The position numbers were made by a program, and so were the translations under genes. A stretch of DNA of 64,000 bases from an uncultured Sphingomonadaceae bacterium (GTDB taxonomy: Bacteria > Pseudomonadota > Alphaproteobacteria > Sphingomonadales > Sphingomonadaceae), in contig CANMWO010000001.1 of NCBI GenBank assembly GCA_947501695.1, positions 1,178,001-1,242,000 on the forward strand, given 5' to 3'. This document shows positions 45,067 through 49,097 of the stretch, piece by piece. Position 1 is the stretch's first letter; every line of letters begins with the position of its first letter. The notes under the pieces are model-generated. The model had not been told where the DNA came from and did no database searches. It was given only the letters and a program-made list of their open reading frames with translations.

Positions 45067-45801
45067 TTGATTGCCCCCCTACTCGAAATCATGCGGCGTT
45101 TGCGCGATCCTAAGACTGGATGCGAATGGGATAGCGTACAAACCTTTGAAACCATCGCACCTTATACTATCGAAGAAGCTTATGAAGTTGCCGATGCAAT
45201 TCAGCGCAAAGATATGGACGCCTTGAAAGATGAACTGGGCGACCTTCTGCTACAGGTTGTTTTCCACAGCCAGATCGCATCTGATGAAGGCCATTTCTCA
45301 TTTGATGCTGTGGTAGGTGCGGTTTGCGAAAAAATGATCAGACGCCATCCGCATATTTTTAGTGAAGCCAAAGACACACCTGGCTGGGAACAGATAAAAG
45401 CTGAAGAGCGAGCGGAAACAGGAAATTCAAGTGCTTTGGACGGCGTGGCATTGGCCCTGCCCGCACTGTTACGCGCGCAAAAAATACAAAAACGTGCGGC
45501 ACGAGTTGGTTTTGATTGGCCCGATAAAGCACCGGTTAAAGCAAAACTGCTAGAAGAACTCGATGAAGTAGAGCAGGCTGAAAACAAAGACCATATCCAT
45601 GAAGAAATTGGCGACCTACTATTTTCGGCGGTTAATCTGGCGCGTCACTATGGAGTCGATGCCGAACAGGCACTTTCCGATGCTACAAGAAAATTCTCTT
45701 TACGATTCAATAAGGTAGAAGGTTCTGTGTCGGGAGAAATGCAAGAGATGTCTATCGATGAGTTGGAAGAAGCATGGCAAAGGGCTAAGGCCTCAACCTA
45801 A
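45067..45801 (+). CDS. mazG: MazG nucleoside triphosphate pyrophosphohydrolase
   Basis: 244 residues. Two MazG repeats: TIEEAYEVADA with DELGDLLLQVVFHSQIA, and later EEIGDLLFSAVNLARHYG; the EExxE acids bind metal. It hydrolyses non-standard NTPs and may affect (p)ppGpp control. The start is a TTG at 45067 with no better candidate and a weak ribosome site, so the N-terminus is not firm. It converges on hflX with a four-base overlap. Confidence 0.9.
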   Translation: MIAPLLEIMRRLRDPKTGCEWDSVQTFETIAPYTIEEAYEVADAIQRKDMDALKDELGDLLLQVVFHSQIASDEGHFSFDAVVGAVCEKMIRRHPHIFSEAKDTPGWEQIKAEERAETGNSSALDGVALALPALLRAQKIQKRAARVGFDWPDKAPVKAKLLEELDEVEQAENKDHIHEEIGDLLFSAVNLARHYGVDAEQALSDATRKFSLRFNKVEGSVSGEMQEMSIDELEEAWQRAKAST

Positions 45802-47093
45802 AGTGCGTGAAACCGCCCCCAATTCCGATTGGACATTTGGACATCTAATACCAAATCATCATTTGCTTGTTCTGATTCCAGAACCCGGCCATTTTCATGC
45901 AGCCACGCTAAGCGCTTCCCGTCAGATACCGACAGAGTGACGGTCTCAACGTTATGATTGCGTGACAGATTATCTGTCACCATTTCTATAAGAGCTTCGA
46001 TACCCTGCCCGGTAACTGCTGATATCAGGCAGATGTTGTCTGGAACATGCTCGGGTAATTTCATAGCATCGGGATCATCAGAGTTGATCAGATCGATCTT
46101 GTTCCAAGCTTCGATGATGGGTGCCCCCTCCCCGTCTTGCAGCTCGACTCCTAGTTCGAGCAATATTTGCTCTACGTCACCAGCCTGCCCGTCGCTCGAG
46201 TTATGAGAGATATCCCTTACATGGATAATCACATCCGCGGCCGTTACTTCTTCTAACGTTGCCCTAAAAGCAGCGACCAATTGCGTGGGTAGATCAGATA
46301 CGAAGCCCACCGTGTCAGACATTATTGCTTTATCGTAACCTGGCAGAGAAAATTGGCGCATTGTCGGATCAAGAGTTGCGAATAACAAATCCTCAGCGAA
46401 TACATCTGCTCCCGTTAAACGATTGAAAAGCGTTGATTTTCCAGCATTAGTATAGCCTACAAGGGCGATAACCGGCCATGGCGCTTTCTGACGGCGCGAC
46501 CGATGCAGCGTTCGGGTTTTACGCAAATGAGAGAGGTCCTTGCGCAATTTAGCCATACGATCACGAATCATGCGGCGATCGGATTCAATTTGTGTCTCGC
46601 CCGGACCACCCAAGAAGCCGAAGCCACCACGCTGCCGTTCCAAGTGAGTCCAGCTACGGACCAGGCGGCCGGCTTGATAGTCTAGATGAGCCAATTCAAC
46701 CTGCAGGCGCCCTTCGGCAGTCGCTGCTCTGGCGCCAAAAATCTCCAAAATAAGGCCGGTGCGATCGATGACCTTGACCTTTAATTCCTCTTCCAAATTA
46801 CGCTGCTGAATCGCACTTAAAGTGCCGTCAACGATCAATATATTGGCGTCTTCTTGAGCCAATATAGTTTTAATTTGCCCAACTTGGCCGGAACCAAATA
46901 ATGTTCCCGGCTTGGGTGCACGAACCGAGAAATATCGTGCTGACGTTGTCTCGATGCCAATCGCGAGAGCGAGACCAACGGCTTCTTCTAATCGATATTC
47001 CAATGCATCTTGATTCAATGCCCCTAAATCAGGGTGGACAACGACAGCTAGATCTTTGGTCCCATCCAGTTCGTTTTTTTCAAATGGTATCAA
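45798..47093 (-). CDS. hflX: HflX GTPase (TTG start)
   Basis: 431 residues. N-terminal HflX domain ([20 protein letters not shown]) followed by the GTPase core with [12 protein letters not shown] (G1), DTVGFV (G3) and NKIDL (G4). It splits stalled or dormant ribosomes in this family. The start is TTG at 47093, overlapping the hfq stop (47090-47093), so it is coupled to hfq as in many proteobacteria. Last gene of the ntr-hfq group. Confidence 0.93.
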
Positions 47094-47581
47094 TGGGAAC
47101 CTTCATCTGTATTATAGTCGGCCAAATTGATAGCACCGCTAGGCTGAATAGTCGATATCGCATGCTTGTAAACGAGCTGGGCCAAGCCTTCTCGCTCCAG
47201 CAATACACAAAAAAGGTCGTACGCTGCTACCTCGCCCTGAAGCATCACGCCGTTGACTAGGAACATCGTAACGGGATCGCTACTATCCCGAACCGCTGTT
47301 AGAAAAACTTCCTGCAGCACGCCATTTTTAGTTTTGGCGCGCTCCATTAAATCAGCAAATGCCTGCATATCAAGGCTCTGAGATGGCATGATCGTAGAAA
47401 TGGCGTGCTTGTAGACCAACTGCGACTGGCCATCCCGGCGCAGCAAAACAGAGAAATTGTCGAACCATGTAACAATGCCCTGAAGCTTCACGCCTTTGAC
47501 TAGGAACATCGTTACAGGCATTTTTGATTTGCGGAGAGAGTTTAAGAAGAGGTCTTGCAAATTATTTGATTTATCGGTCAT
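47090..47581 (-). CDS. hfq: RNA chaperone Hfq with two tandem Sm domains
   Basis: 163 residues from ATG 47581; GGAG lies seven bases upstream, and a longer frame is not needed. Two complete Hfq cores are joined with an exact period of 81: YKHAIST at 57-63 and 138-144, LQG at 33-35 and 114-116. Domain 1 keeps the Q9-D10 start and a basic rim RKSK (17-20). Domain 2 has Q90-E91 and its rim has become RDSSD. Distal-face Phe26/Lys32 in domain 1 become Phe107/Met113 in domain 2. A trimer would give a six-domain ring. Ordinary Hfq is 70-100 residues with one core. Sphingomonads, as I recall, are known to carry such a doubled form. Overlaps hflX. Confidence 0.93.
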
Positions 47582-47714
47582 TTTTGACTCCGGTTTTTGG
47601 CGGCGTAAAGACCGCAGACAGGGTTTTAGTTTGCGGCCTACGATAAGTGGGGGAACCGCATAATCAACATATATGGATTTGATGTTGAAGCTACAACAGC
47701 AATCGGACAATCCG

Positions 47715-49097
47715 TTATTCTACACTCTGCTTCTTTTTGGCCGCAAGTCCCAGAATTTTAAGCTTCCTATGTAATGCAGACCGTTCCATCCCTATAAAGT
47801 TGGCCGTTTTTGATATATTTCCGGAAAATCGTCTGATCTGGACTTTGAGATATTCACGCTCGAAACTTTCACGCGCTTCCCGCAGCGGAGATCCCATCAA
47901 TGATGCAACTCCTTGATCCAAATCATCATCATTGCCCAATATCTCTGGCGGCAGCATCTCTATTTCGATTTTAGTGAAATTATCTTTCGGCGCCAATATG
48001 ATCGTCCGCTCAATAACATTACGCAATTGACGAACATTGCCAGGCCAATCACAAGCTTGCAGCGCCGCCATCGCTTCATTAGAGATTTCTGGTGAATTCA
48101 GCCGCTGATCGGCGGCGAAGCGAGCTGAATAATGCTCTACCAATGTAGGGATATCTTCCCGGCGCTGGTTAAGCGGTGGCAATTCGACAGGCACGACATT
48201 CAACCGGTAGAAAAGGTCTTCCCGAAAGCGTTTTTCCTGAATCTCTTCGTCAAGATTTCGAGAAGTTGCCGATACCACACGAACATCTACCTTTACCCGT
48301 TGCGTCCCGCCCAGACGAACGAAACTCTGCTCGGTTAACACTCGCAGAATCTTGCCTTGTGTGTCCAAAGGCATGTCAGCCACTTCATCAATGAACAACG
48401 TCCCGCCATGCGCTTCTTCCAGGAGTCCTATTTTTTCGACCGCACCATTTTTCTCTGTTCCGAACAATTCTTCTTCGACACTTTCGGGAGAAAGCCGGGC
48501 AGCGCTTATCGTAACAAATGGCGCGTTGGCGCGAGGGCTCCAATTGTGCATCAGGCGTCCGGCAACTTCCTTGCCAACACCTGCAGGCCCGGAAATGAGC
48601 AGGCGGCTGCCAGTGCCAGCAACTCGTTTCAAGGTCGCGCGCACAGCATTGACCGCAGCGCTATTGCCAGTGAGTTCATCAGCAAATCCGACCCGCGCTT
48701 TCAAAATCTCGTTCTCTCGGCGTAAACTCTCCGTCTCCGTGGCTCTCGCCACTAAATGCATCAGATGTTCGGCTTCAAAGGGTTTTTCGATGAAATCAAC
48801 AGCGCCTTGGGAAATCGCCGCAACTGCGGTATCTATATTACCATGCCCAGAAATCACTATGACTGGTAATTTGGCGTCAATTTTCTTGATTTCAGTCAAC
48901 AGCTCGAGCCCATCCAGACGCGACCCCCTCAACCAGACATCGAGCAATACGAGAGACGGTTTGCGTTCCTTAACCGCCGCCAGCGCTGAATCACTATCGC
49001 CAGCTACTCTAGTTTCGTAACCGTCATCCTCTAGAACACCGGATATTAACTCACGAATATCGGGTTCGTCATCAACAATTAGAATATCTAATGCCAT
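47715..49097 (-). CDS. ntrX: Response regulator NtrX without GAFTGA loop
   Basis: 460 residues. Receiver domain with phospho-acceptor Asp53, an AAA+ domain with Walker A GPAGVGKE (170-177) and Walker B GGTLFIDE (231-238), and a C-terminal Fis-type helix-turn-helix ([20 protein letters not shown]). Where sigma-54 activators have GAFTGA, this protein reads [15 protein letters not shown], so the sigma-54 contact is lost. NtrX proteins of other alphaproteobacteria are known to be unusual in this way. It probably controls promoters without sigma-54. It lies eleven bases after ntrY. Confidence 0.92.

Follow-up and report, generated by a model that had tools for sequence, protein, structure and literature searches.

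The RNA chaperone Hfq is a textbook case of six-fold symmetry. Since a mutation in a single-domain Hfq alters all six sites at once, the number of sites required is difficult to study. Eukaryotic Sm/Lsm hetero-rings share the principle that differing Sm domains occupy set places in a ring, but unlike a doubled Hfq they consist of seven separate chains without fusion. A doubled Hfq has been described in Zymomonas mobilis: Yang et al. (2010; PMC2877685) reported two Sm-like domains in its Hfq (ZMO0347), an arrangement shared with six other Sphingomonadales species, and already asked whether three chains would be enough to form a ring. This agrees with the initial annotation of the locus studied here, which stated that doubled Hfqs had been noted in sphingomonads before. 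In the passages considered, PMC2877685 makes no mention of a fixed inequality of the two halves, and no mention of two Sm domains was found in those of PMC9797736, PMC7546472, and PMC5770649. A search of titles and abstracts, with subscription papers mostly outside its scope, did not find unequal Hfq halves in the literature.

The best PDB sequence match to domain 1 of the protein described here was the single Hfq of Caulobacter crescentus (PDB 6gwk), which was also among the top structural rows, although other Hfqs scored within 1 Z unit of it. The likeness includes a basic rim and an acidic tail (PMC6561178). Unlike our protein, Caulobacter Hfq has one Sm domain per chain, six identical subunits and six acidic tails per ring.

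The Doubled hfq Gene and Its Neighbors

The DNA analyzed, called the window in the following, is a stretch of 64,000 nucleotides from an uncultured Sphingomonadaceae bacterium. The following features are relevant here:

47090..47581, minus strand: doubled hfq, 163 amino acids; two Hfq/Sm domains and a short C-terminal tail
47375..47560, minus strand: Hfq domain 1, residues 8-69 (Pfam stretch 8-69); basic rim, Lys28, Lys31
47318..47374, minus strand: linker, residues 70-88; predicted helix 73-81
47132..47317, minus strand: Hfq domain 2, residues 89-150; Asn28, Met31, rim net charge -1, Leu41, Gln63
47093..47131, minus strand: C-terminal tail, residues 151-163; mildly acidic, low confidence for 161-163
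45798..47093, minus strand: hflX homolog, 431 amino acids from a TTG start; named by reading of the sequence
47715..49097, minus strand: ntrX-type response regulator, upstream of hfq; named by reading of the sequence

The hfq reading frame extends on the minus strand from an ATG at 47581 to a TGA stop codon ending at 47090. An alternative longer frame starting with TTG at 47710 is present, and the plus-strand translation of 47090-47581 contains several stops. Both domains were recognized by the Pfam family Hfq (PF17209; two stretches, whole-protein E-value 1.5e-56, 188.3 bits versus a cut-off of 27), and the cut-off of TIGR02383 was passed as well (179.8 versus 61.7 bits). The protein also exceeded the cut-off of the doubled Hfq model NF010691 (PRK14091; 293.9 versus 270 bits), residues 1-160 aligning with model positions 16-174 of 176, and no architectural difference between the two was found. 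Core alignment and Pfam matches placed the two full Hfq cores exactly 81 residues apart, which bears out the period given in the initial annotation. The domains are 64% identical at the protein level and 65% at the DNA level (59 codons). The nearest named relative, L123 from an uncultured Sphingomonadaceae bacterium, is 99% identical. Residue positions such as 28 and 31 follow E. coli numbering; Lys28 and Lys31 of domain 1 correspond to residues 29 and 32 of the window protein, Asn28 and Met31 of domain 2 to residues 110 and 113.

Searching the whole genome of the window with the Hfq profile gave two matches (E-values 1.0e-30 and 1.5e-23), both within the doubled hfq; a second Hfq gene was not found at E ≤ 0.001. 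By tblastn, hflX was located beside hfq in 119 of the 121 loci searched and was missing in L042 and L045, both of which are short. Since hflX adjoins hfq in nearly all loci, the doubled gene appears to be the ordinary hfq and not an extra paralog. The ntrX-type regulator was present at hfq in 59 of 60 loci from the family of the window (absent in L104) and in 3 of 61 others. Four bases (47090-47093, minus strand) are shared between the end of hfq and the TTG-initiated hflX frame, as is also the case in locus L063 (1992-1995), a sequence arrangement that suggests coupled translation.

Distribution and Origin of the Doubling

The presence of doubled Hfqs was analyzed in samples of the order, the class, and the phylum, the counts for the order genomes being a hand tally. 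The family of the window accounts for 236 of the 297 order genomes; of these 236, 225 had two Hfq matches and 11 a single one. Outside the family, 59 of the 61 order genomes had one match, one had two, and one had none. The class sample comprised 289 genomes, of which 245 had an Hfq match; all five genomes of the family in it had two matches, and only one of the 284 others did. The cut-off of NF010691 was passed in at least 19 of 397 phylum genomes, all from the family among the matches listed. In one family genome (G063) the match to this model spans both halves and scores below the cut-off. Two candidates for an independent origin, G001 from the order and G344 from the class sample, were rejected as their two matches lie on different contigs. 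A doubled Hfq outside the family was thus found neither in the order and class samples nor among the matches listed for the 397 phylum genomes.

A tree of HflX was calculated by the "quick" method from 75 sequences, of which 50 came from loci with a doubled Hfq, 10 from single-Hfq loci of the family, and 15 from others. The doubled sequences formed one clade (SH-aLRT 95, root split unsupported), and a single change explains all Hfq states on this tree; hflX is itself linked to hfq. Secondary loss in the single-Hfq members of the family is not favored, as the ten that were read fall outside the doubled clade at this same support and with the same unsupported root. These data point to a single event in an ancestor within the family, by which an ordinary sphingomonad hfq would have been duplicated and fused; the tree needs only one origin.

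Nine of the ten single Hfqs of the family (L014, L110, L111, L113, L115-L120) carry Met24, like most doubled Hfqs and unlike the other single Hfqs of the order, which have Val24 in 30 of 30 cases. This residue fits a place of the family singles just outside the doubled clade.

The Two Halves Differ in a Fixed Pattern

For comparison of the halves, we aligned 125 doubled Hfqs from the 225 family genomes with two matches, namely 100 of the 200 outside the genus g13, including the window protein, and all 25 from g13. The former set combines 47 proteins, the window protein among them, with 53 taken from the best-scoring listed matches, a choice that favors well-conserved domains 1. They were set against 70 single Hfqs, mostly top-scoring matches (10 of the 11 from the family, 30 from other families of the order, and 30 from the class).

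In the window protein, domain 1 reads R16-K17-S18-K19 at the rim and has K31, and domain 2 reads R16-D17-S18-S19 and has M31. The two unequal domains described in the initial annotation were thereby confirmed. Canonical Hfqs have one Sm domain per chain, with a basic rim and Lys31 in each; the window protein has two per chain, the first with both traits and the second without them. Compared with single Hfqs, domain 1 shows the exchange N28K, and domain 2 the exchanges T37A, W38A, N41L, M63Q, and Arg to Glu just before position 47.

All 100 doubled Hfqs from outside g13, and 16 of the 25 from this genus, combine Lys28 and Lys31 in domain 1 with Asn28 and Met31 in domain 2. One refutation set beforehand was close relatives with equal halves; it did not arise, residue 28 differing between the domains in all 125 proteins aligned. 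The pattern at positions 28 and 31 recurs in 80 of 80 additional named loci, which are left uncounted because one of the two seed patterns itself contains the Asn..Met motif. As single Hfqs have Asn28 and Lys31 (70/70), one half of the doubled protein gained a lysine and the other half lost one, and the number of lysines at positions 28 and 31 per six domains is six in doubled as in single Hfqs. The codons of the window gene (AAA..AAG in domain 1, AAC..ATG in domain 2) are each one base away from the single-Hfq state.

Further positions separate the halves outside g13 (100 domains of each kind). Residue 37 is Thr in domain 1 and mostly Ala in domain 2, residue 38 is Trp in domain 1 and Ala in 90 domains 2, and residue 41 is Asn in domain 1 and Leu in 93 domains 2, in all three cases without overlap; residue 63 is Met, Leu or Ile in domain 1 and Gln in 100 of 100 domains 2. 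The rim charge, calculated from positions 16, 17, and 19 together with the additional residue preceding 47, was +4 in all 100 domains 1 and in 69 of 70 single Hfqs. In domain 2 it ranged from -3 to +3, being zero or negative in 85 and net positive in 15 of 100 sequences; R16 was kept in 74 and R47 in all 100.

Invariant in both halves (100/100) were Q8, F25, G29, V30, Q33, Q52, Y55, K56, H57, S60, and T61, and F42 was present in 100 domains 1 and 99 domains 2. Q8, F42, K56, and H57, which we take to be the residues of the U-binding proximal pocket, all occur in both domains of the window protein. The distal-face residues F25, G29, V30, Q33, Q52, S60, and T61 are likewise kept in both halves. 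The surfaces thus do not all differ to the same degree: the rim and position 31 are unequal, as stated in the initial annotation, and the proximal residues Q8, K56, and H57 are the same in both halves (100/100). In the sequences aligned, the inequality of the halves is fixed; the doubling itself was already known, and its fixed inequality is the new part.

A TLSARP-type motif lying 20-38 residues ahead of domain 1 in the open frame was observed in 61 of the 100 doubled Hfqs (e.g., L075-L086). The motif was not found in 70 of 70 single Hfqs or in the window protein; it is possibly a short binding motif.

Selection or Decay in Domain 2

The changes in domain 2 might be explained by relaxed drift, if this domain were a structural filler that closes the ring and only one half had to retain full RNA binding. 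Domain 2 is indeed the less conserved half (mean pairwise identity over 47 proteins 0.757 versus 0.883 for domain 1, mean entropy 0.59 versus 0.30 bits), most of its basic rim residues are gone, and in 9 of 25 g13 genomes its position 31 truly drifts (Ala in three, Met in two, Arg in two, Leu and Ser in one each). Drift could, however, hardly hold one new residue over so many genera: Met31 and Gln63 are constant in 116 of the 125 doubled Hfqs, the other nine all belonging to g13, and Q8, N28, G29, V30, Q52, Y55, K56, and H57 are invariant in the domains 2 outside g13 (100/100). Because Met31 is constant in these 116 proteins although domain 2 evolves faster, it looks selected, and the unvarying Met31 and Gln63 together speak for function rather than decay. 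We therefore regard the filler explanation as rather unlikely.

The nine loosened Hfqs of g13 (L109, L112, L114, L272-L277; 9/25 genomes) are 40-51% identical to the window protein. Their domains 1 have Gly in place of Trp38 and Arg31 beside a retained Lys28 (9/9 each). Gln replaces His57 in four of the nine domains 1, and His57 is kept in all nine domains 2. It looks as if the two halves have divided their roles further.

Structure Prediction and Probable Ring Assembly

AlphaFold2, run with an alignment of 43 sequences, predicted both domains together with a pLDDT of 87.9 and a pTM of 0.84. Each domain adopted the Sm fold with an N-terminal helix and five strands in the model (from helix 8-19 to strand 61-66 in domain 1 and from helix 89-100 to strand 142-147 in domain 2). 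The pTM value fits a fixed pair of domains, most simply in neighboring ring positions, though pTM alone gives no docking. In Foldseek and VIA-align searches, the rows shown were Hfq chains, each covering one domain, and no solved chain with both domains was found among the best 50 rows of either. Three chains probably form a pseudo-hexameric ring in which domains 1 and 2 alternate.

Six chains could alternatively form two stacked homo-rings, one of domains 1 and one of domains 2, joined by the linkers. Measured from P64 in domain 1 as far as L7 in domain 2, the linker comprises 22 residues in the window protein and 20-24 in all of the 47 proteins that were measured, a length that could in principle span two rings, and a head-to-tail Hfq dodecamer was seen in one crystal form (PMC5379935). 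On the other side, the nearly constant linker length and the balance of lysines speak against stacking: gain of one lysine and loss of another make sense within one ring, which would carry six distal lysines, whereas stacking would put twelve on one ring. Neither argument is decisive, and we consider stacked rings improbable.

A Proposed Model for a Three-Chain Ring

In the alternating three-chain ring, the pore would hold the U tail of an sRNA in six pockets, those of domain 2 perhaps being altered by the exchange of Asn41 to Leu. Only domain 1 retains the full basic rim, and the distal lysine, of which single Hfqs have one per domain, occurs there as the Lys28/Lys31 pair and is absent from domain 2. 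Annealing would then occur mainly at the three basic rims of domain 1, and three C-terminal tails would serve three rims, compared to six tails for six rims in single Hfq. A-R-N triplets would bind to the distal face firmly where it is formed by domain 1 and more weakly where it is formed by domain 2, and the repeat unit recognized would accordingly comprise six nucleotides instead of three.

Published data bear on several of these steps. In E. coli, RNA-RNA chimeras were reduced almost 4-fold by the exchange K31A and almost entirely lost with R16A, and earlier work cited in the same study found K31A to be mild in regulation (PMC12262471). In Caulobacter Hfq, the acidic tips of the tail pack on basic rim residues (PMC6561178). 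A distal A site sits between adjacent Hfq subunits (PMC5379935), and the contacts that PMC8121710 names for positions 28 and 31 involve backbone atoms. In view of these backbone contacts and the unchanged distal base-contact residues of domain 2, the exchanged side chains may have less effect than supposed here. Nor is domain 2 simply dead, given R16 in 74 and R47 in 100 of 100 sequences and a positive rim in 15. Against our best reading stand the tail of the window protein, which has only three Asp/Glu and no Lys/Arg among the 16 residues after P64, and the loss of the pattern at position 31 in 9 of 25 g13 genomes. With respect to RNA partners, neither of two sRNAs tested was bound by Z. mobilis Hfq, which is described as not being a proven sRNA chaperone (PMC7064620), and the action of the sRNA SuhB of Sphingopyxis granuli is Hfq-dependent (PMC6563040).

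A remodeling of the domain 2 surfaces for a protein partner (degradosome or translation repression) rather than RNA could account for its new conserved uncharged residues (Met31 100/100, Leu41 93/100, Ala38 90/100, Gln63 100/100), but this domain keeps the nucleobase-pocket residues of both flat faces, and we judge such a role very improbable.

We consider it fairly probable that the protein was fused once, that its halves have fixed different roles, and that three chains form an alternating ring with six U pockets, three annealing rims, and alternating strong and weak distal steps. A more specific proposal, in which the exchanges Asn28 to Lys and Lys31 to Met act as a switch from six-fold to three-fold symmetry, is speculative and rather unlikely; it would comprise a six-nucleotide distal unit, three annealing rims, three neutral-to-acidic rims serving as copies of the autoinhibitory tail, and separate lanes for sRNA and mRNA.

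In this one family, half of the rims and half of the distal lysines of Hfq have been changed in a pattern that is kept across many genera. This fixed asymmetry would be a natural tool for counting Hfq sites and names the residues for exchange, and its regularity turns the old question of the three-chain ring into a testable one.
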